NCBI GenBank assembly: GCA_002421475.1
Contig: DIJW01000182.1
Span: 185-11,795, forward strand
DNA length: 11,611 nt
Source of the DNA: Thiomicrospira sp. UBA5634
GTDB taxonomy: Bacteria > Pseudomonadota > Gammaproteobacteria > Thiomicrospirales > Thiomicrospiraceae
Direction of reading: 5' to 3'
Shown: piece by piece, positions 1-11,167 of the stretch
Layout: each line of letters begins with the position of its first letter
Numbering within the stretch: position 1 is the stretch's first letter
Notes under the pieces: model-generated
The model's input: the letters and a program-made list of their open reading frames with translations, nothing else
Database searches by the model: none
What the model was told of the DNA's origin: nothing
Translations under genes and position numbers: made by a program

Positions 1-938
1 GTTTGGTCGCGGCCAGCCTTGTTACGCAAACAGCTGTTGCGGCTGTTGATCCAACTTTACCTGACTACAAACGTGTATCGGGTGTTTCTGGCAACTTCAC
101 TTCAATCGGTTCAGATTCATTAGCCAATATGATGACCTTGTGGGTTGAAGAGTTTAAACGTCACTATCCAAACGTAAACGTTCAAGTACAGTCTGCCGGT
201 TCTTCAACTGCACCACCCGCAATGGCTGAAGGTACTTCACAAGTCGGCCCAATGAGCCGCGCGATGAAGTCGGGTGAAATTGCGATGTTTGAACAAAAAT
301 ATGGTTATGCACCGACTCAGATTGGTGTAGCGATTGACGCTTTAGCAGTATTTGTTCATAAAGATAACCCGATTAAAGGTTTGACTATGCAACAAGTTGA
401 TGCGATTTTCTCTTCTACACGTGCGTGTGGTGCTGAAAAAGACATTACGACTTGGGGCCAAGCTGGTTTAACCGGTGAATGGGCAAATCGTTCAATGCAA
501 ATGTACGGACGTAACTCAGTATCCGGTACTTATGGTTATTTCAAAGAAAAAGCGCTTTGTAAAGGTGACTATAAGAACTCTGTAAACGAACAGCCTGGTT
601 CAGCATCAGTTGTACAAGGTGTTTCTGCTTCAATTAATGGTATTGGTTACTCAGGAATGGGTTACGTAACAGCTGGTATTAAAGCGGTGCCATTAGCGAA
701 AAAAGCCGGTGAAACTTTCTATGAAGCGAATGCTGAAAACGCCGCTAGCGGCAAGTTCCCATTGGCTCGTATGTTATACATTTATGTAAACAAAGCGCCA
801 AACAAAGCACTGGACCCTGCGGTTAAAGAGTTTATGACCATGGTATTGTCTAAGCAAGGTCAAGAAGTGGTATTTAAAGATGGCTATGTACCATTACCGA
901 AAGCGGTAGCGGCACGTGAGTTAGCTAAGTTGAAATAA
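1..938 (+). CDS. pstS: PstS-family phosphate-binding protein, 5' end missing
   Basis: This is the periplasmic substrate-binding component of a high-affinity phosphate ABC transporter. The frame is open from the first base, so the real start and most of the signal peptide lie left of the window; what remains is the end of a signal peptide ([11 protein letters not shown]) followed by about 290 mature residues. Family marks are the phosphate-loop segment [11 protein letters not shown] near the mature N-terminus, [20 protein letters not shown], the central [17 protein letters not shown], and [15 protein letters not shown]. Codons are strongly biased to CGT, GGT and GCT, more than in the neighbouring lptD block, which suggests high expression. 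No pstC, pstA or pstB follows; the gene ends at a hairpin terminator, so the permease genes must lie elsewhere or upstream. A related PBP-like protein with another oxyanion ligand cannot be excluded. The family call is firm and the ligand is inferred. Confidence 0.85.
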
Positions 939-1036: not shown

Positions 1037-1048
1037 ACCAGGCCTGGT
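1037..1048. repeat. Iterated palindrome copy 1 (exact, intergenic)
   Basis: Exact ACCAGGCCTGGT. It lies between the pstS terminator and the ferredoxin stop codon, in a gap between convergent genes. Confidence 0.9.
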
Positions 1049-1061
1049 ACGCTGTAAAATA

Positions 1062-1313
1062 TCAGGGAATTTCGATTTCAATATCGGTTAACGGAATCAC
1101 GCTGCAGGTGAGGATATAACCCTTGTCACAATCGTAAGCCGGGGTTTGAATTTGTTCGACTTTACCGGATACCAGTTTTACTTCACATGCGCCACAATTT
1201 CCGCCACGACAGCTGTATGGCATATCAAATCCTTGTTCGTCTAACGCTTCCAATAATGAAAACTCACCGTCAAACTCGCAGGTTCCTTGTCCAATCACCG
1301 TGACTGTTGGCAT
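1062..1313 (-). CDS. Plant-type [2Fe-2S] ferredoxin, YfaE-like
   Basis: A small soluble electron carrier of 83 residues with the classic plant-type cluster motif: Cys35, Cys40 and Cys43 in CRGGNCGAC, and Cys70 in ILTCS. Length and layout match stand-alone ferredoxins such as E. coli YfaE (84 residues), which helps keep the diferric-tyrosyl cofactor of class I ribonucleotide reductase. That role is only suggested here, because no nrdA or nrdB is visible. Two further cysteines (12 and 62) are not part of the motif. The ATG start has a good ribosome binding site, AAAAAGGA, eight bases upstream. The gene converges on pstS and appears to be transcribed alone, since a minus-strand terminator separates it from the channel gene. 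A ferredoxin for another oxygenase or reductase is the main alternative. Confidence 0.9.
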   Translation of the reverse strand: MPTVTVIGQGTCEFDGEFSLLEALDEQGFDMPYSCRGGNCGACEVKLVSGKVEQIQTPAYDCDKGYILTCSVIPLTDIEIEIP

Positions 1314-1346
1314 GTTTATATTCCTTTTTCTGGTTAATTCGCGGGT

Positions 1347-1386
1347 AAAAAATAATGGCTCATTTTAACAAAAAAATGAGCCATTA
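1347..1386 (-). terminator. Rho-independent terminator between channel and ferredoxin genes
   Basis: A 14-bp perfect stem (arms 1353-1366 and 1373-1386, including AATGGCTCATTTT) with a six-base loop is followed on the minus strand by six Ts (1352-1347). It lies 86 bp past the channel stop and 33 bp before the ferredoxin start. Its likely job is to end the channel transcript; an attenuator in the ferredoxin leader is also possible. Confidence 0.85.
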
Positions 1387-1436
1387 AAACATCTACTACA
1401 GCCTAGAGATTAAGGATTCGCGCTGACCTTGTTGGT

Positions 1437-1456
1437 GTCACTGCGTTCGCAATGAC
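1437..1456. repeat. 20-bp imperfect inverted repeat in intergenic DNA
   Basis: GTCACTGCG and CGCAATGAC flank a TT centre with one mismatched pair, just after the channel stop codon. Its wording resembles dispersed GTCATTGCGA-type intergenic repeats seen in many bacteria. Only one copy is present here, so the assignment to a repeat family is uncertain. Confidence 0.35.
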
Positions 1457-1472
1457 GACCTGGCATGTGCGT

Positions 1473-2279
1473 TTATTTCTTTTGGTTTTCTAAAATGGCG
1501 GCCAATTGTTGTTTTAGGCTGTCCATTTCATTTTTAATGTATTCAATATTTTCGTAATTTTTTTGGTCATGTTGGAGCGTTTGATTTTCTTCGTCTTTGA
1601 CCGAGTTCATTGCGTCCAAAATAATACCGATAAACAGGTTTAACACGGTAAAGGTGGTGACTAAAATGAACGGAATAAAGAATAACCAGGCATAGGGATA
1701 CACTTCCATCACCGGACGCACGATACCCATTGACCAAGATTCAAGCGTCATTACTTGGAATAGGGTGTAGATACTGGCACTGATTGAACCGAACCATTCC
1801 GGAAAGGCTTCGCCAAACAGATTGGTGCTCATGACCGCGCCGATATAGAAAAAAATCACCAATAAACCGGCAATACTGAACACGCCCGGAATCGCCAATA
1901 ACATGGCAGAAATGACGCGGCGCATAGACGGTACAACTGAAATTAAACGCAGTAAACGCAAAATACGTAACGCACGCAGTACGGCTAAGTCACCGGAGGC
2001 AGGGATCAGGGCGATGGCAACGATAATAAAGTCGAAGTTGTTCCAGCCGCTTTTAAAGAATGAGGCACGTTGCACCCATAATTTCATGGCAATTTCGATG
2101 ACGAAAATAGACAAACATAGGCTGTCGAGCCAATCCAAGGCGTTAATGATTTGGCTGTCGAGACTTTTTGAGGTTTGAATACCAAGGATAATGGCGTTAA
2201 AAATAATCACGTAAATGATGAACTTGTTAAACCAGTTCGAATCTATAACGGTTGCGATTTGACGCGTGAGTTTGTCCAT
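1473..2279 (-). CDS. Bacterial voltage-gated sodium channel (NavBac family)
   Basis: An inner-membrane protein of 268 residues with one six-helix domain that would assemble as a homotetramer and admit Na+ on depolarisation. The voltage sensor S4 (about 100-113) has Arg102, Arg105, Arg108 and Arg111 at three-residue spacing. S2 carries the counter-charge Glu62, and S3 has the WNNFDF segment around Asp83. The pore loop holds TLESWSM at 178-184, identical to the filter reported for NavAb, with Glu180 as the key ligand. S6 ends in NLFIGIILDAMNSV, followed by an acidic linker and a C-terminal coiled coil (about 242-266) typical of tetramer assembly. The ATG follows a weak binding site. It is divergent from bolA and has its own terminator. 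Sodium selectivity is inferred from the filter; channels of this family have been linked to motility and pH homeostasis in alkaliphilic Bacillus. Confidence 0.93.
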   Translation of the reverse strand: MDKLTRQIATVIDSNWFNKFIIYVIIFNAIILGIQTSKSLDSQIINALDWLDSLCLSIFVIEIAMKLWVQRASFFKSGWNNFDFIIVAIALIPASGDLAVLRALRILRLLRLISVVPSMRRVISAMLLAIPGVFSIAGLLVIFFYIGAVMSTNLFGEAFPEWFGSISASIYTLFQVMTLESWSMGIVRPVMEVYPYAWLFFIPFILVTTFTVLNLFIGIILDAMNSVKDEENQTLQHDQKNYENIEYIKNEMDSLKQQLAAILENQKK

Positions 2280-2348
2280 AATGTTTAATCCGTTTGGTTA
2301 AAGTAGAAAGTCGCTAAGAGCGTGCCTTGTTGGCCTAAAACGCGACAA

Positions 2349-2376
2349 ATTTTAGCAAAGTTTAAGCGGGTTTAAA
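2349..2376 (-). promoter_or_regulatory. Candidate sigma-70 promoter for the channel gene
   Basis: On the minus strand, TTTAAA (2376-2371, four of six) and TAAAAT (2354-2349, five of six) are separated by 16 bp. Transcription would begin near 2342, giving a leader of about 60 bases. AT-rich intergenic DNA yields such matches readily, so this is tentative. Confidence 0.3.
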
Positions 2377-2385
2377 CTATACTTA
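2377..2385 (+). promoter_or_regulatory. Sigma-S-like extended -10 element of bolA
   Basis: CTATACTTA matches the extended -10 favoured by RpoS holoenzyme (C before the hexamer, TA after it). No good -35 is found at 16-18 bp, which is also typical of RpoS promoters. The start would be near 2390, about 73 bases before the bolA ATG. E. coli bolA is RpoS-dependent, so the match makes biological sense, but presence of RpoS here is unproven. Confidence 0.45.
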
Positions 2386-2462
2386 GCGTATAAATTTTCG
2401 CTCAATGATGGGCGGTTAACCGTGCTTTTTGCGGTGATAATTCAGTCATAAAAGGACAGAGT

Positions 2463-2768
2463 ATGAGTATGCAATCTTTGATTGAGCAACGTTTAAATGC
2501 CGGCTTTCCACAACTGGAAATGTCGATTGAAAACGAAAGTCATATGCACGCCGGGCCGGCAACCGAATCACATTTTAAACTGGTGCTTATAACGCCGGCG
2601 TTTGAAGGCTTGTCACAGGTAAAACGTCATCAAGCCGTGTATAAAGTCTTGGGTGATGTAATGAGTCGGATTCATGCATTGGCATTGCATACGTTTAGCG
2701 CTGAAGAATGGCTGAAGCAGACTAAAACGGTGCCTGCATCGCCTTTGTGTGCCGGTCAAAATAAGTAA
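2463..2768 (+). CDS. bolA: BolA family protein
   Basis: A 101-residue cytosolic protein of the BolA family, which partners monothiol glutaredoxins through a shared [2Fe-2S] cluster. In enterobacteria it also acts as a stress and morphology regulator. Recognised by NESHMHAGPATESHFKL (24-40), the helix-turn-helix-like signature FEGLSQVKRHQAVY (47-60) with Arg55-His56, and HALALHTFSAEEW (71-83) with His71 and His76. The tail PASPLCAG parallels the C-terminus of E. coli BolA (105 residues), so this is BolA proper rather than IbaG. AAAGGA lies six bases before the ATG. It is divergent from the sodium channel gene and has a sigma-S-like -10 upstream. Only 19 bp separate its stop from the convergent membrane protein gene. 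Confidence 0.95.
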   Translation: MSMQSLIEQRLNAGFPQLEMSIENESHMHAGPATESHFKLVLITPAFEGLSQVKRHQAVYKVLGDVMSRIHALALHTFSAEEWLKQTKTVPASPLCAGQNK

Positions 2769-2776
2769 CCGACATC

Positions 2777-2788
2777 ACCAGGCCTGGT
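2777..2788. repeat. Iterated palindrome copy 2 (exact, between convergent genes)
   Basis: Exact ACCAGGCCTGGT filling most of the 19-bp gap between bolA and the membrane protein gene. Its last base is the final base of that gene's TAA stop codon on the minus strand. Confidence 0.9.
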
Positions 2789-3372
2789 TAATGGGGGGCG
2801 TCGGTTTGTTCTCCTTCTTTCGGTTGGTTTGCGGGATCAAGATGCGGATAAACCAGATGCCACGCGTCCATAAATTTCATATGATCGAGTTTGCGCTGTA
2901 ATAAATGCACCGCTTGCATATATTGGTCAATATACAAATAACGTCCGCGTTTAAGTGATTGCACTAAATGACGGTAACGCGTGGGTAAAAAGTGTTTGAA
3001 GTGCACAATCAAACCAAACTCCCCTTCGGTTTCGGCGATGCGACGCTCGACTTCAAGCCGTGCATTCCAACGAACTTGTTCATCAAATCCTTCAAACATT
3101 TTGCCGATCGTCAGCACAATCCCCGCTGCGATCAAAAAACTTAAAATAAGTTGACCGGTGATCCAAGCACCCAAAAATGTGAAGATAACCAAACTCAAAG
3201 TGGCAACCGGAATGGTCAGAATGTTGATCCAAATTTTATTGCCGCGCATTTGTTCTTCCGCGAGTTTTAGATCAAAGTCTGTTAAGTCGATTTCGTGTAA
3301 GCGAATTAACATTTGCTGGGCGGTAGGAATGGATTCTAGCGGACGATCTTCCGGTAATATGGCGCCTGTCAT
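2788..3372 (-). CDS. Two-helix membrane protein of unknown function
   Basis: I do not recognise this 194-residue protein. It has a polar N-terminal segment (1-46), two hydrophobic helices at about 48-70 and 73-91 joined by a short WITGQ turn, and a long basic, histidine- and tyrosine-rich C-terminal part (about 95-175: EVERRIAETEGEFG, FKHFLPTRYRHLVQSLKRGRYLYIDQ), with an acidic tail after 185. There is no signal peptide, so it is likely an inner-membrane protein with both ends in the cytoplasm. Its ATG overlaps the apaH stop by four bases (ATGA), so it is probably translated by coupling as the last gene of the lptD operon. The coupling is the only clue to its function; a link to apaH or LPS assembly would be speculation. 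Confidence 0.8.
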   Translation of the reverse strand: MTGAILPEDRPLESIPTAQQMLIRLHEIDLTDFDLKLAEEQMRGNKIWINILTIPVATLSLVIFTFLGAWITGQLILSFLIAAGIVLTIGKMFEGFDEQVRWNARLEVERRIAETEGEFGLIVHFKHFLPTRYRHLVQSLKRGRYLYIDQYMQAVHLLQRKLDHMKFMDAWHLVYPHLDPANQPKEGEQTDAPH

Positions 3373-4229
3373 TTAGATTTTTTCCCTTGTTTAGCCGATT
3401 TTGGTTCGCAGGATTGAGGACATTCAAACGTATGGCGTATGCGGGTTTCCAAGCAAAAAGCCGTCAATTTCCCACCCCATAAACAGCCGGTATCGGTTGC
3501 GTGAACTTGATAACCGTCCATTGCACCTAAGGTTGACCAATGGCCGAAAAAGATTTCGACATCTTTATTGCGACGATTATTATGCAAAAACCAGGCCTGG
3601 TAGTTAGGATGGGTATTGCGCTCCGGCGCGAGTTTCATGTCAAAATCTAACACGCCTTGATTGTCGCAATAACGCATGCGTGCAAACGCATTCACGATAT
3701 AACGCAATCTTTCCCAGCCTTGTAAGCCATCGTGCCAGTGTTTGGTTTTTGAGCCGAATAGGTGTTCGGTAATAAATTCACGCCAGTTAGGTGAACGCAA
3801 TAGTTGTTCCACTTCATTGGCGTGAGTTTGCGCTTGTTCTGCACTCCATTGCGGCGGAATACCGGCATGTACCATAACCACCGGCAAAGTGGGGTGTCGC
3901 ACTAATAAAGGTTGTTGACGTAGCCAGTCGATTAACTCGGCACGATCCGGTGCATTCAGAATCGGTTGCAGGGTATCGCTTTTGGAGGCATATTTTTCCA
4001 AACCGCAATCGGAGGCGAGCAGATGAAAGTCGTGATTACCTAACACCATTTTGCCGCGTTCACCGAGCGATTTAACAAAACGCAAACATTCCAGCGATTG
4101 TTCGCCGCGATTAACAATATCACCGACAAACCAAAGCTCATCTTGCTCCGGTTGATAATTAATCTGCTTTAGTAACGCTTGCAGCGGATCAAAACAGCCC
4201 TGTAAGTCTCCGATAATGTAAGTCGCCAC
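3369..4229 (-). CDS. apaH: Symmetric bis(5'-nucleosyl)-tetraphosphatase ApaH
   Basis: Cytosolic hydrolase that splits Ap4A symmetrically into two ADP, lowering stress dinucleotides and affecting Np4-capped RNA. It has 286 residues against about 280 in E. coli. The metallophosphoesterase motifs occur in order: GDLQGC (7-12), GDIVNRG (36-42), GNHDFH (64-69), VHAGIPPQW (near 120-128) and FGHW plus DTGCLWGG in the C-terminal part. The first motif reads GDLQG where E. coli has GDVHG; Gln at this place is a variant of a metal-site His, yet everything else is well conserved, so activity is expected. The start is GTG, with AAAGG seven bases upstream. It lies 42 bp after rsmA, with no apaG in between, and its TGA overlaps the next gene. 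The tail is lysine-rich (SAKQGKKSK). Confidence 0.95.
   Translation of the reverse strand: MATYIIGDLQGCFDPLQALLKQINYQPEQDELWFVGDIVNRGEQSLECLRFVKSLGERGKMVLGNHDFHLLASDCGLEKYASKSDTLQPILNAPDRAELIDWLRQQPLLVRHPTLPVVMVHAGIPPQWSAEQAQTHANEVEQLLRSPNWREFITEHLFGSKTKHWHDGLQGWERLRYIVNAFARMRYCDNQGVLDFDMKLAPERNTHPNYQAWFLHNNRRNKDVEIFFGHWSTLGAMDGYQVHATDTGCLWGGKLTAFCLETRIRHTFECPQSCEPKSAKQGKKSK
3590..3601. repeat. Iterated palindrome copy 3 (exact, in apaH)
   Basis: Exact ACCAGGCCTGGT inside apaH, read on the minus strand as the codons for Tyr-Gln-Ala-Trp. Confidence 0.9.
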
Positions 4230-4271
4230 GCATTTGCCTTTATTATTTTTTTAAGGATTTGAAGATTATGT

Positions 4272-5081
4272 TTATTCTGCCGGTTGCTGCGTTTTAACCT
4301 GGCTATATAAATTGGCCAAGCGCACAAAATCCTCCACCGCTAAAGCTTCTGCTCTTAAACCGGGGTCAACTCGGCAAAGTTCGATTTGTTCACTATTTAA
4401 CCAGTTTTTTAGTGTATTACGCAAGGTTTTACGTTTCTGACTGAACGCTTGTTTAACCAAAGCGGCAAAATCGCTAAAGTTGTCCGCTTTAAATGGCGGT
4501 GTAAGGTAAGGCACCAGCCGAACAACCGCTGAATCCACTTTTGGTGCAGGGGTAAAATTTTCTGGTCCGACGGTAAATAAATATTCGGTTTCGCAGGCAT
4601 ATTGAATCATCACACTCAAGCGACCAAAGGCTTTGCAACCCGGGTTAGCGGTCAGGCGTTCGACCACTTCTTTTTGCAACATAAAGTGCATATCTACAAC
4701 CAAGTCATTAAATTCAAGCAGATGAAACAATAACGGGCTGGAAATGTTATACGGCAGGTTGCCGACTAAACGCAGGCGTTCGTTGGGCACTAACTGCAAG
4801 CTACGATAGTCGAATCTGAGCGCATCGGCATTGTGTAAATGAAACGAAGGCAGTTGGCTAAAACGTTTGGTTAGCGGCGCAATTAAATCGCGGTCGATTT
4901 CAATAATGTCTAAATGTTTTACCGCATGCAATAAGGGTTCGGTCAGCGCGGCTTCACCCGGGCCGATTTCTACCAGGTGTTGATCTGCTTGCGGGTTAAT
5001 CGCCGCCACAATCTGCTGAATCACACGACCGTTATTGAGGAAGTTTTGCCCAAATTGTTTTTTATGCTGATAACTCGACAT
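4272..5081 (-). CDS. rsmA: 16S rRNA dimethyladenosine transferase RsmA (KsgA)
   Basis: Methylates N6 of two adjacent adenosines in the 3' hairpin of 16S rRNA, using S-adenosylmethionine, and acts as a late checkpoint in 30S assembly. It has 269 residues, close to the E. coli 273. Visible motifs are FGQNFL (10-15), the SAM loop [13 protein letters not shown] (38-50), the acidic ribose contact EID (61-63), NADALRFD (84-91), the catalytic motif NLPYNIS (108-114), and [11 protein letters not shown] followed by the [10 protein letters not shown] region. The C-terminal helical domain contains [11 protein letters not shown]. The ATG overlaps the 3' end of pdxA by 20 bp; a strong GGAGG six bases upstream supports this start. 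The order pdxA-rsmA-apaH is that of E. coli except that apaG is missing. Confidence 0.97.
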
Positions 5082-6063
5082 GGCGTGCCTCCAACATTTC
5101 TAACGCGACTTGAATCGCGTAATGGAAGCTGCCGGCGTCTGCCTGACCTGTCGCGGCCAGCTCAAGCGCGGTGCCATGATCCACTGAGGTGCGAATAAAT
5201 GGCAAACCCAGCGTGATATTCACCGCTTGACCAAAGCCCATGTGTTTGAGTACCGGTAAACCTTGATCGTGATACATGGCTAAAAACGCATCCGCTTGCT
5301 TAAGTTTATGCGGCGTAAATAAGGTGTCGGCGGGGTAACAGCCGCTAATATCCATGTGATGTGCGCGTAATTTATTAATCACCGGCTGAATAACATCAAT
5401 TTCTTCGCGTCCCATGTGACCGTCTTCACCCGCATGTGGGTTTAATCCGGCGACAAATAAACGCGGTTTTTCAATGCCAAATTGGTGCTGTAATGAACCA
5501 TAGGTAATGCGCATGACTTTTTCTAATAACTCGGCAGTAGTTGCGTTCGGCACGTCTTTTAACGGCAGGTGAGTGGAGGCAAGCGCCACCCGCAAACCGG
5601 GTGTCGCCAACATCATCACCACCTGTTCGGTTTGGCTAAGTTCAGCCAGTAATTCGGTATGACCGCTAAACACCAAACCGGCTTCATTGATGATGCCTTT
5701 ATGTACCGGGCCGGTCACCAACGCTGCGAATTCACCGCTTAAACAACCTTGGGTAGCTCTGGTAAGCATTCGGATTACATAATCGGCATTAAGTTTATCC
5801 AACACACCGGGTTGAGTGGGGGCGTTGAGGGCTAAATCAAGCACACACAATTCACCAGGCCTGGTAATGCGTTCGGCATCGTTGGCATCATAGTTAATAA
5901 TGGATAAAGGAAGATTGAGCGCCTTGGCACGCGCCTGCAATAAATCTGCATCGGCAATGACCACCAATTGCATCGGCCATTGATGTTGCGCCAATTGAAT
6001 CACTAGATCCGGGCCAATACCTGCCGGTTCGCCGGAGGTAATCACTAAACGCGAGGCAATCAT
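5062..6063 (-). CDS. pdxA: 4-hydroxythreonine-4-phosphate dehydrogenase PdxA
   Basis: Cytosolic, metal-dependent NAD(P) enzyme of the DXP-dependent pyridoxal phosphate pathway. It oxidises 4-phosphooxy-L-threonine, and the product decarboxylates to 3-amino-1-hydroxyacetone phosphate for PdxJ. It has 333 residues (E. coli 329). Motifs are [12 protein letters not shown] (9-20), [11 protein letters not shown] (116-126), FSGHTELLA (132-140), metal ligands His165, His210 (GLNPHAGE) and His265 (YHDQGLP), and [12 protein letters not shown] near 292-303. The ATG overlaps the surA stop by four bases (ATGA), implying coupled translation. A copy of the iterated palindrome encodes Thr67-Arg68-Pro69-Gly70 and forces a rare AGG arginine codon in a non-catalytic stretch. 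Confidence 0.97.
5854..5865. repeat. Iterated palindrome copy 4 (exact, in pdxA)
   Basis: Exact ACCAGGCCTGGT inside pdxA. It is read as ACC AGG CCT GGT (Thr-Arg-Pro-Gly), a different frame from the copies encoding Gln-Ala-Trp. Confidence 0.9.
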
Positions 6064-7040
6064 GGCGTCACCTTGTTTAAACGTATGTCAATATAGGCTT
6101 CATCACGCAAACGGCGCATCCATAAATCAAAGGTTTCATTCGCTTTACGGATACGAATCGCTTGAATGGCCTCTTGTTCAAGTGCTTGACCACTTTGTTT
6201 GGTGCTGCGTTTATCGAGCAGTTTAATAATGTGATAACCACTAGGCACATCAATTACACGGCTGATTTGACCCGGCTGTAAACGCATAACTTCAGTGGCA
6301 AAAAAGGTGGGCATTTGATCAAAGTTTAACCAACCCAAATCCCCCCCGGTAAGGGCGCGACTGCCTTCGGAATGACGTACCGCCATTTGAGCAAAATCAG
6401 CGCCTAATTGCAGTTGTTTGTAAATATCATCCACTTTGGCTTGCAGTTGGGTGCGTTGTTCGGGGGTCGGAGACTCCGGGCGACTGATCAAAATGTGCGC
6501 CAGTTGGAATTCTTCATTGGCAGTTTGTAAATTACGTCGTTGAATAAAGTTATTCACTTCGTCTTCGGTGACATGAATTTGGCTGATGACTTCAACTTCG
6601 CGTAACTTTTGAATCAAAATTTGCTCACTGATTTGGGTGCGAATGCGGGCAAATCCATTCGGCATTTCACGATCCAACGCTTGCTGCAGTTGGATTAAAC
6701 TCAGTTTGTTGGCTTCTGCCATTTGTAATAATTGCGCGTTAATTTCATCATCACTTACCCGCAATCCGCGCTGGTCGGCGCGCTGTTGTTGCAGTTTTTG
6801 CATGATCATATTGTCGAGCACTCGCGCCCGCAACGCATCGCGATCGTCGCCGGCAATTTGACGTTGACGTAACTCTTGTTGGGCTTGCTCCAATTGCATA
6901 TTGAGTTCGCTAAGCAGAATAATATCGTCGTTCACTACCGCGACAATCCGATCCAGCAGGGTGTTGGCTTGGATGGTATGAGCCGATAAACTCAAGATCA
7001 CTACGGCGAAAAAGCGGTGAAAATTTGACATCATATTCAT
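6060..7040 (-). CDS. surA: Periplasmic chaperone SurA, single parvulin domain
   Basis: Periplasmic chaperone that carries unfolded outer-membrane proteins, LptD among them, to the Bam complex. Residues 1-25 form a signal peptide (hydrophobic [11 protein letters not shown], cleavage after HTIQA). The SurA N-terminal domain starts at [19 protein letters not shown] (28-46) and runs through charged helices to about 170. One PpiC/parvulin domain follows at about 176-277 ([38 protein letters not shown]), then a C-terminal helix. At 326 residues it is about 100 shorter than E. coli SurA (428), which has two parvulin domains; one is absent here. No frameshift or break is visible, so this is a native short form. 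The first ATG is 14 bp after the lptD stop with a weak AAAGA; Met3 or Met4 are possible alternatives. Confidence 0.95.
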
Positions 7041-7054
7041 AAAAAGTCTTTGTG

Positions 7055-9343
7055 TTAAAAGTTAAGGGTTTTTTCGATGGTGTCGCGTAAACGGTTGCCC
7101 AAAGTGCTGAGGCCTTTAAACTCGATTACATATTTGACACCGTAATTATAACGGCCATCCGCCAGCTGTGCTTCTTCGAAAATCAGCTCCGATGCCCAGC
7201 AACAACTATCATAACGTAAGCCGGTCGCGGTCTCACGGCGTTGTTGTTGCTCAATGTCATAGTTTACATAACTGGCCAATTCCCATTGCTGGCTAAGTTT
7301 AACCACCAGGCCTGATGCCAAGGTATTTGTTCGTTGTAACGGGTCGACATGATTGATATTAAGCGCTTGATGCACCGCCAGCAAATTGAGTCGCTCACCA
7401 ACTGTCCATTTTAAGCGGTTTTGCAGGTTATTAAGCACTTGAGTCTCACTATCAAAGCGAGCGTTACTGCTCAAGTAAAATTGATCAAATGTCAGACCAA
7501 GTTTTACGAAATAGTCAGAGTGACGTTGTTGATTCAGTTGGCTAGCGGTAAGACCGACCTCTTGATCGACTAAAAATATAATTTGGCCAATCGCTGCTTC
7601 GGCTAAGGGTTCACCTTGGTTATTGAGTAGTTTCGTACCCAACGCAGCCGTGACTTGTTGGGTATCACCAATCCGATCCACGCCGGAAAAACGGTTTAAC
7701 TGGAATAGGTTACTGAAATCTAAACTGGCATTAGCCGTATCAAAAATAGGTAATCGGCTCTGATCAACTAACGGCACATGCAGGTATTGCAACTCCGGCT
7801 CCAACGTTTGCACAAAATCTTGCCCAAATAATGTTAGATCACGTTCAAATACTAAGCCACCACGCAGGGCATATTGCATCACCGTGTTTGATGATTGCTC
7901 ATCCATCGTCAGCGAATTGTTTTGCAGTGCGTACTCGCGATAATTGGCCTTAACCTGTGCTTGCAGATGACCATAAGGTTTATGCAATTGATATTGCACA
8001 CTTGGTTGCGCCACGAGGCGTGTACCGGTCACGCGTGTACTGGGTTCGGGTAAAGTGAATTCGGTCGCTTCGCTGTAAAGATTTAGCCGCCAGTTACCGA
8101 AAGAGTGCCCGACATTTAAGCCGATTTCCGGGTGTTTTTCATAATTTAATGCAGCGTTACGTAAAGGCAGATAACCATAATGTTGAATATGGGTTTGAAT
8201 TGGGCCTCGACGGTAATTTAATTTAATATGGCGTGGCAGATAACTGGCTTTATTAATGGTTTGGTTTTCGTTCAAGGCTAAGGGGATGTCGTTATAAAAA
8301 TCGACATCCGATACTTCGTGCCATACCAAGTTGGAAGTGAGGTGCTTAGTCCATTGTTGCTGCGCGTTAACACTTGCCCGCCATCGTTTGCTGATGACAT
8401 CATCTGTCGCCACATCACCGGCGGGGGTGACATAATCTCGCCCTTGGCGCGAACTTAACTGATCTTGTAACCCACCGATCCGCAATTCACCACGATGCTG
8501 CGGTTGTAAGTAACGAAATTCATTATCCAGCACTAAACCGCGTTGTTCCATCACCATCACACTGAGTGTGTCGTCAATATTTGGCGCGATATTAAAGTAG
8601 TAGGGCACACTCACTAAACCCAAAGGCGTGTCTTGTGCGGCGCTTTTATGACTGCCAATTGTTGGGAATAATAAACCGCTGGCTCGATCATCGAGCGGAA
8701 AGTCGATATAGGGGGTATACAACACCGGCACATCTTTAAAATACAAGGTGCTGTGATAACCGTATAACCGCCGTTTCGGATCGTTAATTTCGAGTTTATT
8801 AAATGCCACATACCAGGCCTGGTCATGGAGCGGACAGGTCGTAAAACTGGCTTGTTCGAGTTCGCTAATCCGGTTTTGTTGGCTAAAGGCAATCCGCTGT
8901 GCCTCGCCATGTGCACGGCTGTCACGTAATTGATAAACAACGTCGTTCAGAAAACCGCTTTGGTTGGCTTGATTAAGCTCGGCCAAACTGCCTAGTAAAA
9001 TCACATCCGTTTGATGTAATTGCACCGAGCCGAATGCGCGCACAATTTGTTGTGTACGATCATAAAACAGCTGGTCACTGAGCATTACCAGGCCTGGTTG
9101 GCTGAGTTTAGCTTGACCGCTGAGAGTGAATTGGTCTTTTTGAGGTTGGTTGAGTTGATTCGCCGACACTTCGGTCAGGGTGCCGAGCGGCGGTAAATCT
9201 TGCGGCGGCGTTATCCATTCCACCACACACGGATCATTTGTTTCACCCGCCGTTATCGACTCGGTTTGCGCAGACGGCCAAGCCGGTCGGCTGACGAGCA
9301 ATAAGCAACTTAAGCTGATGAGTATTCGGTAAAAAATTGACAT
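7055..9343 (-). CDS. lptD: LPS-assembly protein LptD
   Basis: Outer-membrane barrel that, with the lipoprotein LptE, inserts lipopolysaccharide into the outer leaflet at the end of the Lpt bridge. It has 762 residues (E. coli 784). Residues 1 to about 25 are a signal peptide. An OstA/LptA-like beta-jellyroll domain follows (about 56-165), then the barrel domain (from about 200, YTPYIDFPLDDRASGLLFPTIG) to the end. The four cysteines of the essential inter-domain disulfides are in place: Cys39, Cys170 (TTCP) and the pair Cys714-Cys715 (YDSCCW). It is the first gene of the operon and is divergent from amgK, as in pseudomonads. The only upstream in-frame start before a TAG is this ATG, yet the sole Shine-Dalgarno-like AGGA directly abuts it. 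A TAGAAT hexamer (minus strand, 9388-9383) is a possible -10. Confidence 0.97.
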   Translation of the reverse strand: MSIFYRILISLSCLLLVSRPAWPSAQTESITAGETNDPCVVEWITPPQDLPPLGTLTEVSANQLNQPQKDQFTLSGQAKLSQPGLVMLSDQLFYDRTQQIVRAFGSVQLHQTDVILLGSLAELNQANQSGFLNDVVYQLRDSRAHGEAQRIAFSQQNRISELEQASFTTCPLHDQAWYVAFNKLEINDPKRRLYGYHSTLYFKDVPVLYTPYIDFPLDDRASGLLFPTIGSHKSAAQDTPLGLVSVPYYFNIAPNIDDTLSVMVMEQRGLVLDNEFRYLQPQHRGELRIGGLQDQLSSRQGRDYVTPAGDVATDDVISKRWRASVNAQQQWTKHLTSNLVWHEVSDVDFYNDIPLALNENQTINKASYLPRHIKLNYRRGPIQTHIQHYGYLPLRNAALNYEKHPEIGLNVGHSFGNWRLNLYSEATEFTLPEPSTRVTGTRLVAQPSVQYQLHKPYGHLQAQVKANYREYALQNNSLTMDEQSSNTVMQYALRGGLVFERDLTLFGQDFVQTLEPELQYLHVPLVDQSRLPIFDTANASLDFSNLFQLNRFSGVDRIGDTQQVTAALGTKLLNNQGEPLAEAAIGQIIFLVDQEVGLTASQLNQQRHSDYFVKLGLTFDQFYLSSNARFDSETQVLNNLQNRLKWTVGERLNLLAVHQALNINHVDPLQRTNTLASGLVVKLSQQWELASYVNYDIEQQQRRETATGLRYDSCCWASELIFEEAQLADGRYNYGVKYVIEFKGLSTLGNRLRDTIEKTLNF
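7305..7316. repeat. Iterated palindrome copy 5 (one mismatch, in lptD)
   Basis: ACCAGGCCTGAT, one mismatch, keeping the CAGGCCTG core (7307-7314). On the minus strand it is read within Ala-Ser-Gly-Leu-Val. Confidence 0.7.
8812..8823. repeat. Iterated palindrome copy 6 (exact, in lptD)
   Basis: Exact ACCAGGCCTGGT, encoding Gln-Ala-Trp of LptD just after Cys170. Confidence 0.9.
9087..9098. repeat. Iterated palindrome copy 7 (exact, in lptD)
   Basis: Exact ACCAGGCCTGGT in the OstA-like domain of lptD, read as Gln-Pro-Gly-Leu-Val (CCA GGC CTG GTA). Confidence 0.9.
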
Positions 9344-9485
9344 TCCTGGGGCAAAATTATCTAATTGTCGGCATTGCGCGCTATTCTAACCGAGATAGCG
9401 GCTGAATTCGTCGATTTTACATTTGGACACTTGATTAAGTTTGCTGTCCATCCATAACCATCCAGCAAAGAGCACATAACGCATT
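9344..9485. promoter_or_regulatory. Divergent lptD/amgK promoter region
   Basis: A 142-bp gap between head-to-head genes must hold promoters for both operons. For amgK, TTGATT (9431-9436) and CATAAC (9453-9458) at 16-bp spacing is the best weak pair. For lptD, TAGAAT on the minus strand (9388-9383) is the best -10, without a clear -35. No obvious sigma-E pair (GGAACTT/TCTGA) is seen. A 6-bp dyad, TGGACA (9424-9429) and TGTCCA (9445-9450), surrounds the amgK candidate spacer and could be an operator. Confidence 0.4.
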
Positions 9486-10499
9486 ATGGATTTACGATTT
9501 GAACAATTGCAGGCCTGGTTACACGGCCTAAACCGTTTTCGTGAAGGTGAATTAAGTTTGCCTGTTCCGGCATCCAGTGATGCCAGTTTTAGACGGTATT
9601 TCCGCTGTCAGTTTCGTCATGCCGGCGGTGAGCAAAGCTGGATAATTATGGATGCACCACCGGCGCATGAAGATTGTCGGCCGTTTATTGCCATCTCGGC
9701 GGAATTGGCTGCGTTGGGCTTAAATGTGCCGATTGTCGCTGAACAAGATTTAACCCAAGGGTTTTTATTGTTGTCGGATTTAGGTACCACCACCTATTTA
9801 TCGGCGTTAAATGAAAGCACGGCCGAACATTTATACAGTGATGCGATTCGTGCATTAGTGCGTTTACAAACCAAAGCTACCAGTGATCATTTACCGATTT
9901 ATGATACCGCGATGTTAAGCCGTGAAATGGATCTGTTTACCGATTGGTTGGGTGAGCGTCACTGCGAATTAAGCATGAATGCCAGTGAGCGCCAGGCCTG
10001 GTCGCGGGTACAAAGTGAGCTGATCCACTCGGCGTTGTCACAACCGCAAGTTTACGTGCATCGCGATTATCACAGCCGCAATCTGATGGTCACCGGCGCG
10101 AATAATCCGGGGATTTTGGATTTCCAAGACGCGGTAGATGGGCCGCTGACTTATGATGCGGTGTCGTTATTGCGCGACTGTTATATTGTTTGGCCGGAAG
10201 ATCAGGTGCGTGAATGGCAACGACAGTATTTTTTAATGCTGTGTCAAACCGGTCATTTAACCCAATCTGAATGGAGCGGGTTTTTGCAATCAATGGATTG
10301 GATGGGCATTCAGCGCCATTTAAAAGCATCCGGCATTTTCGCGCGTTTGTATCATCGCGATGGCAAAGACGGCTATTTAAACGATATTCCGGCGACCTTG
10401 AATTACATTATCCAAGTCGGACGGCAATATCATCAAATGAAAGATTTAGTCGGTTGGACGGAAAAACTGGCGACGCGTTACAGCGAGATAAAACTGTGA
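9486..10499 (+). CDS. amgK: Cell-wall sugar kinase AmgK (MurNAc/GlcNAc anomeric kinase)
   Basis: Cytosolic kinase of the aminoglycoside phosphotransferase (APH) fold that phosphorylates recycled MurNAc or GlcNAc at the anomeric carbon, feeding MurU. It has 337 residues. The N-lobe includes SSDASFRRYFR (30-40) and WIIMDAPP (52-59). The hinge-like LLLSDLGTTTYL (94-105) follows. The catalytic loop VHRDYHSRNLM (191-201) has Asp194 and Asn199, and the metal motif LDFQDAVDGPLTYD (211-224) has Asp212. Its place, divergent from lptD and followed directly by murU with a GTGA overlap, is the arrangement known from Pseudomonas, which makes this specific call safer than the fold alone. The ribosome binding site AAAGAG is 13 bases from the ATG, longer than usual. 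This pathway gives intrinsic fosfomycin tolerance in pseudomonads because it bypasses MurA; the same effect here is inference. Confidence 0.93.
   Translation: MDLRFEQLQAWLHGLNRFREGELSLPVPASSDASFRRYFRCQFRHAGGEQSWIIMDAPPAHEDCRPFIAISAELAALGLNVPIVAEQDLTQGFLLLSDLGTTTYLSALNESTAEHLYSDAIRALVRLQTKATSDHLPIYDTAMLSREMDLFTDWLGERHCELSMNASERQAWSRVQSELIHSALSQPQVYVHRDYHSRNLMVTGANNPGILDFQDAVDGPLTYDAVSLLRDCYIVWPEDQVREWQRQYFLMLCQTGHLTQSEWSGFLQSMDWMGIQRHLKASGIFARLYHRDGKDGYLNDIPATLNYIIQVGRQYHQMKDLVGWTEKLATRYSEIKL
9508..9519. repeat. Iterated palindrome copy 8 (two mismatches, in amgK)
   Basis: TGCAGGCCTGGT, two mismatches at the left end, keeping the CAGGCCTG core. It encodes Gln9-Ala10-Trp11 of AmgK. Confidence 0.6.
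9991..10002. repeat. Iterated palindrome copy 9 (one mismatch, in amgK)
   Basis: GCCAGGCCTGGT, one mismatch at the first base, with the 10-bp CCAGGCCTGG palindrome intact. It encodes Gln170-Ala171-Trp172 of AmgK. Confidence 0.75.
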
Positions 10500-11167
10500 A
10501 AGCCATGATTTTAGCCGCCGGGCGCGGCGAACGTTTACGCCCGTTAACCGACCATACTCCCAAACCTTTGGTTTCCTTAGCGGGAAAACCGTTGATTGAA
10601 TATCACTTGGAAAAACTCGCCAAAATGGGGATTAAAGAAGTGGTGATTAACTATGCTTGGTTGGGCGAGCAGTTTGTTGAGCGTTTAGCCGATGGTGAGC
10701 GTTTCGGTTTGAAAATAGCCTATTCACCCGAACCTGAAGGCGGATTAGAAACCGCCGGCGGCATTATTAATGCGTTGCCGTTATTAGGGGGTGAACCCTT
10801 TATGGTTGTTAATGCTGATGTATATACCGAGTATGACTTCAGTCAGTTGCCGCCGAGTTTGGCGCCGGGGTTGTTAGCGCATTTGTTATTGGTTCCGACG
10901 CCGAGTTTTAAAGCACAGGGCGATTTCGGTTTAACCGAACTGGGTCAAGTCCGCTCACAAGGTGAGTTTACTTTTTCCGGTATCAGTTTATTGTCGCCGC
11001 AGCTTTTTAACGGTGTCAAACCCGGCAAAGTGCCGTTAGCGCCGGTTTTACGTCAGGCAATGATGCAAGGCCGTGTCAGTGGTAAAGTCTATGAAGGTTT
11101 ATGGAGTGATATCGGTACGTTAGATCGGCTAGAGCAGACAGAAGCATTAGTTAATTCTGCTGTCTGA
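10496..11167 (+). CDS. murU: N-acetylmuramate-1-phosphate uridylyltransferase MurU
   Basis: Transfers UMP from UTP to MurNAc-1-phosphate made by AmgK, giving UDP-MurNAc directly and bypassing MurA and MurB. It has 223 residues, the usual MurU length. The nucleotidyltransferase fold begins with MKAMILAAGRGERLRPLT (1-18), the sugar-nucleotide pyrophosphorylase signature; then come Lys23 in TPKPL, EGGLETAGGI (81-90) and the metal motif VVNADVY with Asp108. The frame is open further upstream, to 10271, but that stretch lies inside amgK and has no family similarity. The GTG at 10496 places the signature motif at the very N-terminus and overlaps the amgK TGA as GTGA, which argues for coupled translation. 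The gene ends 15 bp before the convergent outer-membrane protein gene, with no clear terminator. Confidence 0.94.
   Translation: MKAMILAAGRGERLRPLTDHTPKPLVSLAGKPLIEYHLEKLAKMGIKEVVINYAWLGEQFVERLADGERFGLKIAYSPEPEGGLETAGGIINALPLLGGEPFMVVNADVYTEYDFSQLPPSLAPGLLAHLLLVPTPSFKAQGDFGLTELGQVRSQGEFTFSGISLLSPQLFNGVKPGKVPLAPVLRQAMMQGRVSGKVYEGLWSDIGTLDRLEQTEALVNSAV

Follow-up and report, generated by a model that had tools for sequence, protein, structure and literature searches.

A 12-bp palindrome iterated through genomes of the Thiomicrospira/Thiomicrorhabdus family, a candidate self-DNA mark

Introduction

To our knowledge, only a few words iterated throughout a genome have been described, and how such words arise is still argued. 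The known uptake sequences, DUS and USS, are not palindromic as far as we know.

In the Neisseriaceae, DUS form dialects: the words differ by species and are related through a shared core, some relatives have none, and ties to terminators are described (part of PMC3630211). For the uptake words of H. influenzae and N. gonorrhoeae, the excess over expectation drops 92-fold and 82-fold, respectively, at the first mismatch (figures from the available part of PMC1939737), and the predicted USS receptor is PpdA/ComN (excerpt of PMC12616744). HIP1 and the alternate HIPs of cyanobacteria are palindromes that deviate at their outer bases and give way to other palindromes in some relatives (as set out in part of PMC4390886).

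The word described here, ACCAGGCCTGGT (D1), is a 12-bp palindrome noticed in a stretch of 11.6 kb (11,611 nucleotides) from a Thiomicrospira genome, hereafter the window. It joins a HIP1-type palindrome to DUS-type dialects, without a partner found for either. Like DUS, as far as the excerpt of PMC3630211 describes them, it is present in hundreds of copies in genes and gaps, with an apparent terminator association, related words (ACCGGCCGGT, D2, and ACAGGCCTGT, D3) and word-less relatives. Unlike DUS, it is palindromic and belongs to another bacterial family, and its role in uptake is putative. It shares outer-base deviations and replacement by other palindromes with the HIPs, which are denser, at 500-2500 per Mb (same part of PMC4390886) against about 37-343 per Mb for D1. 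Within the open-licence PMC literature, we found neither D1, nor an iterated word reported for the family, nor Thiomicrospira and "uptake sequence" together. D1 is palindromic and different from USS; more generally, the known uptake words of Neisseria and Pasteurellaceae differ from it, as the preliminary description of the window had said.

Results

That description listed six exact and three near copies of D1, all of which were recovered at their positions (Table 1). It also had the hexamer AGGCCT as nearly confined to the palindrome: 9 of the 10 in the window fall within the set and the sole outsider is at 7110, when shuffled windows contain 1.26 on average and 5 at most. The number of exact copies it expected by chance, 0.0007, agrees with an order-3 Markov model (about 0.0009 per window, 0.016 per 203 kb). 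A search tolerating up to three mismatches gives 11 matches in the window, when the mean of shuffled versions is 2.85 and 1 of 200 shuffles reached 11. At 6 exact copies in 11.6 kb, its D1 density is above the genome mean of one per 2.9 kb. Both of its word-holding gaps separate convergent gene pairs.

Table 1. Copies of D1 in the window and the reading frames around them
Feature	Position	Setting
Exact D1	1037..1048	gap between convergent frames 3-938 (+) and 1062-1313 (-)
Exact D1	2777..2788	between convergent frames 2463-2768 (+, BolA family) and 2788-3372 (-); overlaps the final base of the latter
Exact D1	3590..3601	within frame 3369-4229 (-, metallophosphatase family; presumably ApaH-like)
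Exact D1	5854..5865	within frame 5062-6063 (-; presumably PdxA)
Near D1, 1 mismatch	7305..7316	within frame 7055-9343 (-; presumably LptD)
Exact D1	8812..8823	within frame 7055-9343 (-)
Exact D1	9087..9098	within frame 7055-9343 (-)
Near D1, 2 mismatches	9508..9519	within frame 9486-10499 (+, APH-family kinase)
Near D1, 1 mismatch (first base)	9991..10002	within frame 9486-10499 (+)
Kinase and nucleotidyltransferase	9486..11167	nucleotidyltransferase adjoins the APH-family kinase; presumably resembling the AmgK-MurU cell-wall recycling pair

In the source genome (G000; 2,007,832 bases, 235 contigs, completeness 83.8%), D1 occurs 688 times in exact form, far above expectation, and the reversed control not once. 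A sample of 203,100 bases, made of the window and 20 further contigs, contains 71 exact copies, 65 of them on the 20 other contigs. Markov models lead one to expect 0.005 copies in this sample at order 1, 0.017 at order 2, 0.016 at order 3, 0.13 at order 4 and 7.4 at order 5, the high-order values being inflated because the sub-words of D1 itself feed them. The top over-represented 10-mers of the sample are pieces of D1 or one-base variants of it. Genome-wide occurrence, presence both within unrelated genes and between genes, and the likeness to HIP1 as a short palindrome iterated throughout the genome and inside genes, all claimed from the window, thus hold at this scale. Neither a genome-wide count close to expectation nor confinement to the window, the two outcomes that the preliminary description named as refuting, was observed.

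The excess of D1 is graded by mismatch load, with observed/expected ratios of 11117, 124, 5.2, 1.25 and 1.04 for 0, 1, 2, 3 and 4 mismatches. The USS of Pasteurellaceae shares such a grading. The first drop, 89-fold, is close to those of the H. influenzae and N. gonorrhoeae words; the second is steeper here, 24-fold against 9 for H. influenzae and 7 for N. gonorrhoeae (available part of PMC1939737). In 24 of the 31 one-mismatch copies of the G000 sample, the altered base is one of the outer two of a half-site. Weaker, symmetric base preferences flank the core: at positions -9 to -7 these are A, C and C/A in genus g1 (G000, G001), and T, T and a genome-specific base in G020, G045 and G031, from other genera, with A/T farther out. 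The 71 sites of G000 match the flank preference on both sides in 22 cases, on the left only in 19, on the right only in 15 and on neither side in 15, so that the two flanks fit it about independently. Given the symmetric flank preferences and the mismatch-graded excess, the site is therefore a palindrome of graded specificity, about 18-22 bp long.

With the flank of genus g1, the site yields CCTGGTGG, which is one letter off E. coli Chi. D1 might accordingly be a Chi-like signal that regulates a nuclease or recombination and protects or marks DNA for repair. Such a role would suit L237 (IMGVR_UViG_3300001336_000470), a temperate-phage contig with integrase, repressor, O/P-like and RecE-like genes, where three exact D1 copies (5326, 5447 and 6447) were found, two within the RecE-like exonuclease gene and one just after it. 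Yet the Chi-like flank is confined to genus g1, being not preferred in G020, G045 and G031 and missing from D2 and D3, and identity with Chi was rejected on this ground. Chi is moreover directional and no palindrome, whereas D1 is palindromic, and we regard a Chi-like role as very unlikely.

D1 is a property of one family. Its carriers are 26 of 58 family genomes, with 93-718 copies each, and include all 9 genomes of genus g1; three others have 16-25 copies and 29 have 0-6. Outside the family, 35 genomes have 0-1 copy. The reversed control is absent from all genomes except one, which has 3. Named carriers are Thiomicrospira sp. Kmv17 (660 copies), Thiomicrorhabdus sp. Milos-T2 (498) and T. arctica (333); T. 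marina has a single copy. G029 has no D1 and holds D2 instead, with 39 copies in 100 kb and 1025 genome-wide, against 0-15 in the other 61 genomes and 0-19 for reversed D2. D3 is found in G033 (224 copies), G019 (154), G023 (119), G053 (113) and G095 (46), against 0-33 in the other 57 genomes and 0-7 for its reversed control. The three words have the central GGCC and a C at -4 in common. A minor presence of D3 was observed in three D1 genomes, G054 (33), G051 (26) and G031 (23), which are possibly intermediates between words.

These labels were placed on an lptD tree of 30 rows, two of them unlabelled and two D1 rows long-branched, with G029 absent. D1, D3 and none require 4 label changes, for a possible minimum of 2, and 0 of 200 shuffles were as low. 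Every main branch includes D1, which looks ancestral in the family as judged from this tree. The D3 rows fall in one branch. Rows with no word are those of the branch of G030, G032 and G034, together with G027 and G057, and the word seems to have been lost there. No iterated word was seen in word-poor genomes G030, G034 and G014 (about 100 kb each), G022 and G047 (40 kb each), or G035 and G010 (20 kb each); for 20 further genomes, a single stretch (1-20 kb) was searched, and several of these stretches were masked or not long enough for a judgement. In G030, a probable CRISPR array is seen as a cluster of words that each recur about 28 times (L043, contig 1, 1-20000).

Sites are conserved as their flanks diverge. 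In 39 comparisons of lptD regions aligned among D1 genomes, gapped or short alignments being excluded, 16 sites were exact against 1.3 expected, 13 were one base off, 6 two off and 4 at least four off; mean identity was 0.90 for the word and 0.64 for the flanks. The pairs are not independent, because they share branches. Between the G000 and G001 samples (21.9 kb aligned, 75% identity), 6 of 13 comparisons were exact, which are three sites viewed from both sides. The close pair G002/G007 gave two sites in 53 kb aligned, with 2 of 3 comparisons exact, too few to weigh. For D1 genomes against D3 or word-less genomes at lptD, there were two comparisons only, with 6/12 and 5/12 bases kept.

Placement of D1 and D2 was counted with genes approximated by long ORFs. 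D1 lies in frames for 50 of 71 copies in G000, 75 of 113 in G001, 11 of 22 in G020 and 18 of 28 in G045, and D2 for 23 of 39 in G029; in these five genomes, the density of the word is 3.6 to 12.4 times higher in gaps than in frames. The coding frame giving T-R-P-G is rare (8/50 in G000, 4/75 in G001). When six samples were pooled (five D1, one D2), site density was highest between convergent genes, at 2.79/kb (36 in 12.9 kb), lower in co-directional gaps, at 1.16/kb (55 in 47.3 kb), and lowest between divergent genes, at 0.66/kb (11 in 16.7 kb). Across nine site sets (D1, D2 and D3), the word lies in the middle of a perfect inverted repeat, its arms 6 bp or longer, at 21 of 311 sites, against about 1.3 expected from re-paired arms, and 17 of these 21 are in gaps. 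Their arm sequences differ from one another, as would those of RNA hairpins carrying the word at the tip. Four chosen word-bearing stretches fold strongly (z -3.5 to -8.5); a T-run is missing from some of them, so that a terminator function of word hairpins is putative. Site pairs less than 60 bp apart numbered 8 against 5.4 expected, an excess that is not convincing. One such arrangement, in G000 contig 120 (L039, 6720-6748), has two D1 copies 5 bp apart that make a 12-bp stem and a loop, then T-rich DNA, and looks terminator-like from its sequence.

Along the G001 chromosome, 20 stretches spaced by about 100 kb hold 1-11 D1 copies apiece, and 40 windows of 10 kb gave a mean of 2.83 and a variance of 2.40, origin and terminus positions being unmapped; neither set gave a sign of uneven or regional distribution. 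D1 counts in G001 bore no relation to tetranucleotide deviation (Spearman -0.08) and weakly tracked GC (Spearman 0.38, P 0.016). The uneven distribution of a macrodomain or segregation site (MatP-, SlmA- or Noc-like) was thus not found in G001, which disfavours this candidate and, with it, a regional form of the segregation role suggested in the preliminary description. The longest word-free runs of the G001 sample cover flagellar genes FliM, FlhB and FlhA (L153, 1592-20000) and a pilus/secretion-type cluster with MshL-like and GspF-like genes, both below cut-off (L154, 1-17531). In G000 contig 4 (L025), D1 copies at 6911, 7674, 8439 and 9092 follow each other at about 650-765 bp and have flanks that resemble one another, as would copies within the repeat units of a single gene.

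Another chromosomal reading is that D1 is the site of a cytoplasmic homodimeric chromosome-organising protein, acting on the nucleoid, replication or segregation, whose preference drifted into related words. Symmetric graded half-sites with independent flanks are what selection by a dimer is expected to leave, sites of this kind are kept, and spacing in gaps leans even in G001 (P 0.034; P 0.10-0.45 in five other samples). Against this stand hundreds of copies with no regional pattern, known chromosome-organising sites being expected in fewer copies. Neither the bias to convergent gaps nor that to hairpin tips is predicted by this reading, and no candidate protein was identified for it. We consider it unlikely, if still worth weighing.

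A HIP1-type origin would mean that D1 arose and persists through a repair bias, be it mismatch repair linked to methylation or some other, and that a methyltransferase recognises the core. The short iterated palindrome, its outer-base deviations (24/31) and its replacement by other palindromes, as in the HIPs, all speak for it. HIPs generally accompany cognate methyltransferases (PMC4390886, as far as its available part goes). Here, a search for PF00145, PF01555 and PF02086 at E 0.001 gave no match in 18, 16 and 20 of the 26 D1 carriers, respectively. A C5-methyltransferase partner was rejected on the 18 carriers without PF00145, which disfavours this form of the methylation role listed in the preliminary description; PF01555 and PF02086 partners are not general. 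All three families are absent from 8 of the 26 carriers (G002, G003, G011, G020, G037, G039, G046 and G051, the last 86% complete), which weakens the methylation model, and also from G029 (D2) and G023 and G033 (D3); other D3 genomes contain some of these enzymes. We therefore hold a HIP1-type origin to be improbable. What is probably a mobile element lies in G000 contig 225 (1115-6131), where an integrase occurs within 5 kb of a PF02086 methyltransferase.

An uptake mark also predicts scarcity in foreign DNA. In 17 methyltransferase loci (64 kb) used for this comparison, 6 copies were found against 8.7 expected (P 0.23), and in 19 lptD loci 21 against 15.6; the phage contig L237 has its three copies. 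Viral scans with two 18-letter forms of the site gave 0 contigs, and a 14-letter form gave 20 stretches, of which 19 had a single copy and the other was L237. The competence protein ComEC (PF03772) is present in 26/26 D1 carriers and is uninformative on carriers versus non-carriers because 30/36 other family genomes have it. ComP_DUS (PF16732), a family that defines the neisserial system only, was found above the cut-off in 0 of 62 genomes, with one weak match, in a search that also matched 0 of 14 control genomes and is thus of unproven sensitivity. We found no reports of competence for these bacteria.

Discussion

Several predictions of an uptake mark were seen: mismatch-graded excess, related words, losses, tolerance within genes, terminator-like placement and upkeep. 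Most of them are described for DUS or USS in the parts of PMC3630211 and PMC1939737 cited above. Among the roles suggested in the preliminary description, this one fits best. We infer that a protein reads the word, that this reader is a homodimer with two equal, independent half-sites or binds in either orientation, and that it acts in DNA uptake. Our preferred reading, which we put a little short of an even call, is that D1 is a self-DNA mark of the Thiomicrospira/Thiomicrorhabdus family and likely works as uptake sequences do in Neisseriaceae and Pasteurellaceae. Word-bearing fragments would be favoured by a DNA-binding receptor within the competence machinery, and biased transformation and recombination would add copies of D1 and maintain them.

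The family may thus have a palindromic self-DNA code in at least three related versions, with a putative symmetric receptor and methylation-free upkeep. This would be a separate origin of uptake-type marking, in free-living sulfur oxidisers, a proposal we advance tentatively and as rather less than an even call. One family of harmless sulfur-oxidising bacteria, some members of which are cultured, combines a word that looks ancestral with two alternative words and several losses. It offers a natural experiment in which co-evolution could lead to the reader, and which could separate uptake bias, repair bias and chromosome function as the source of such words.
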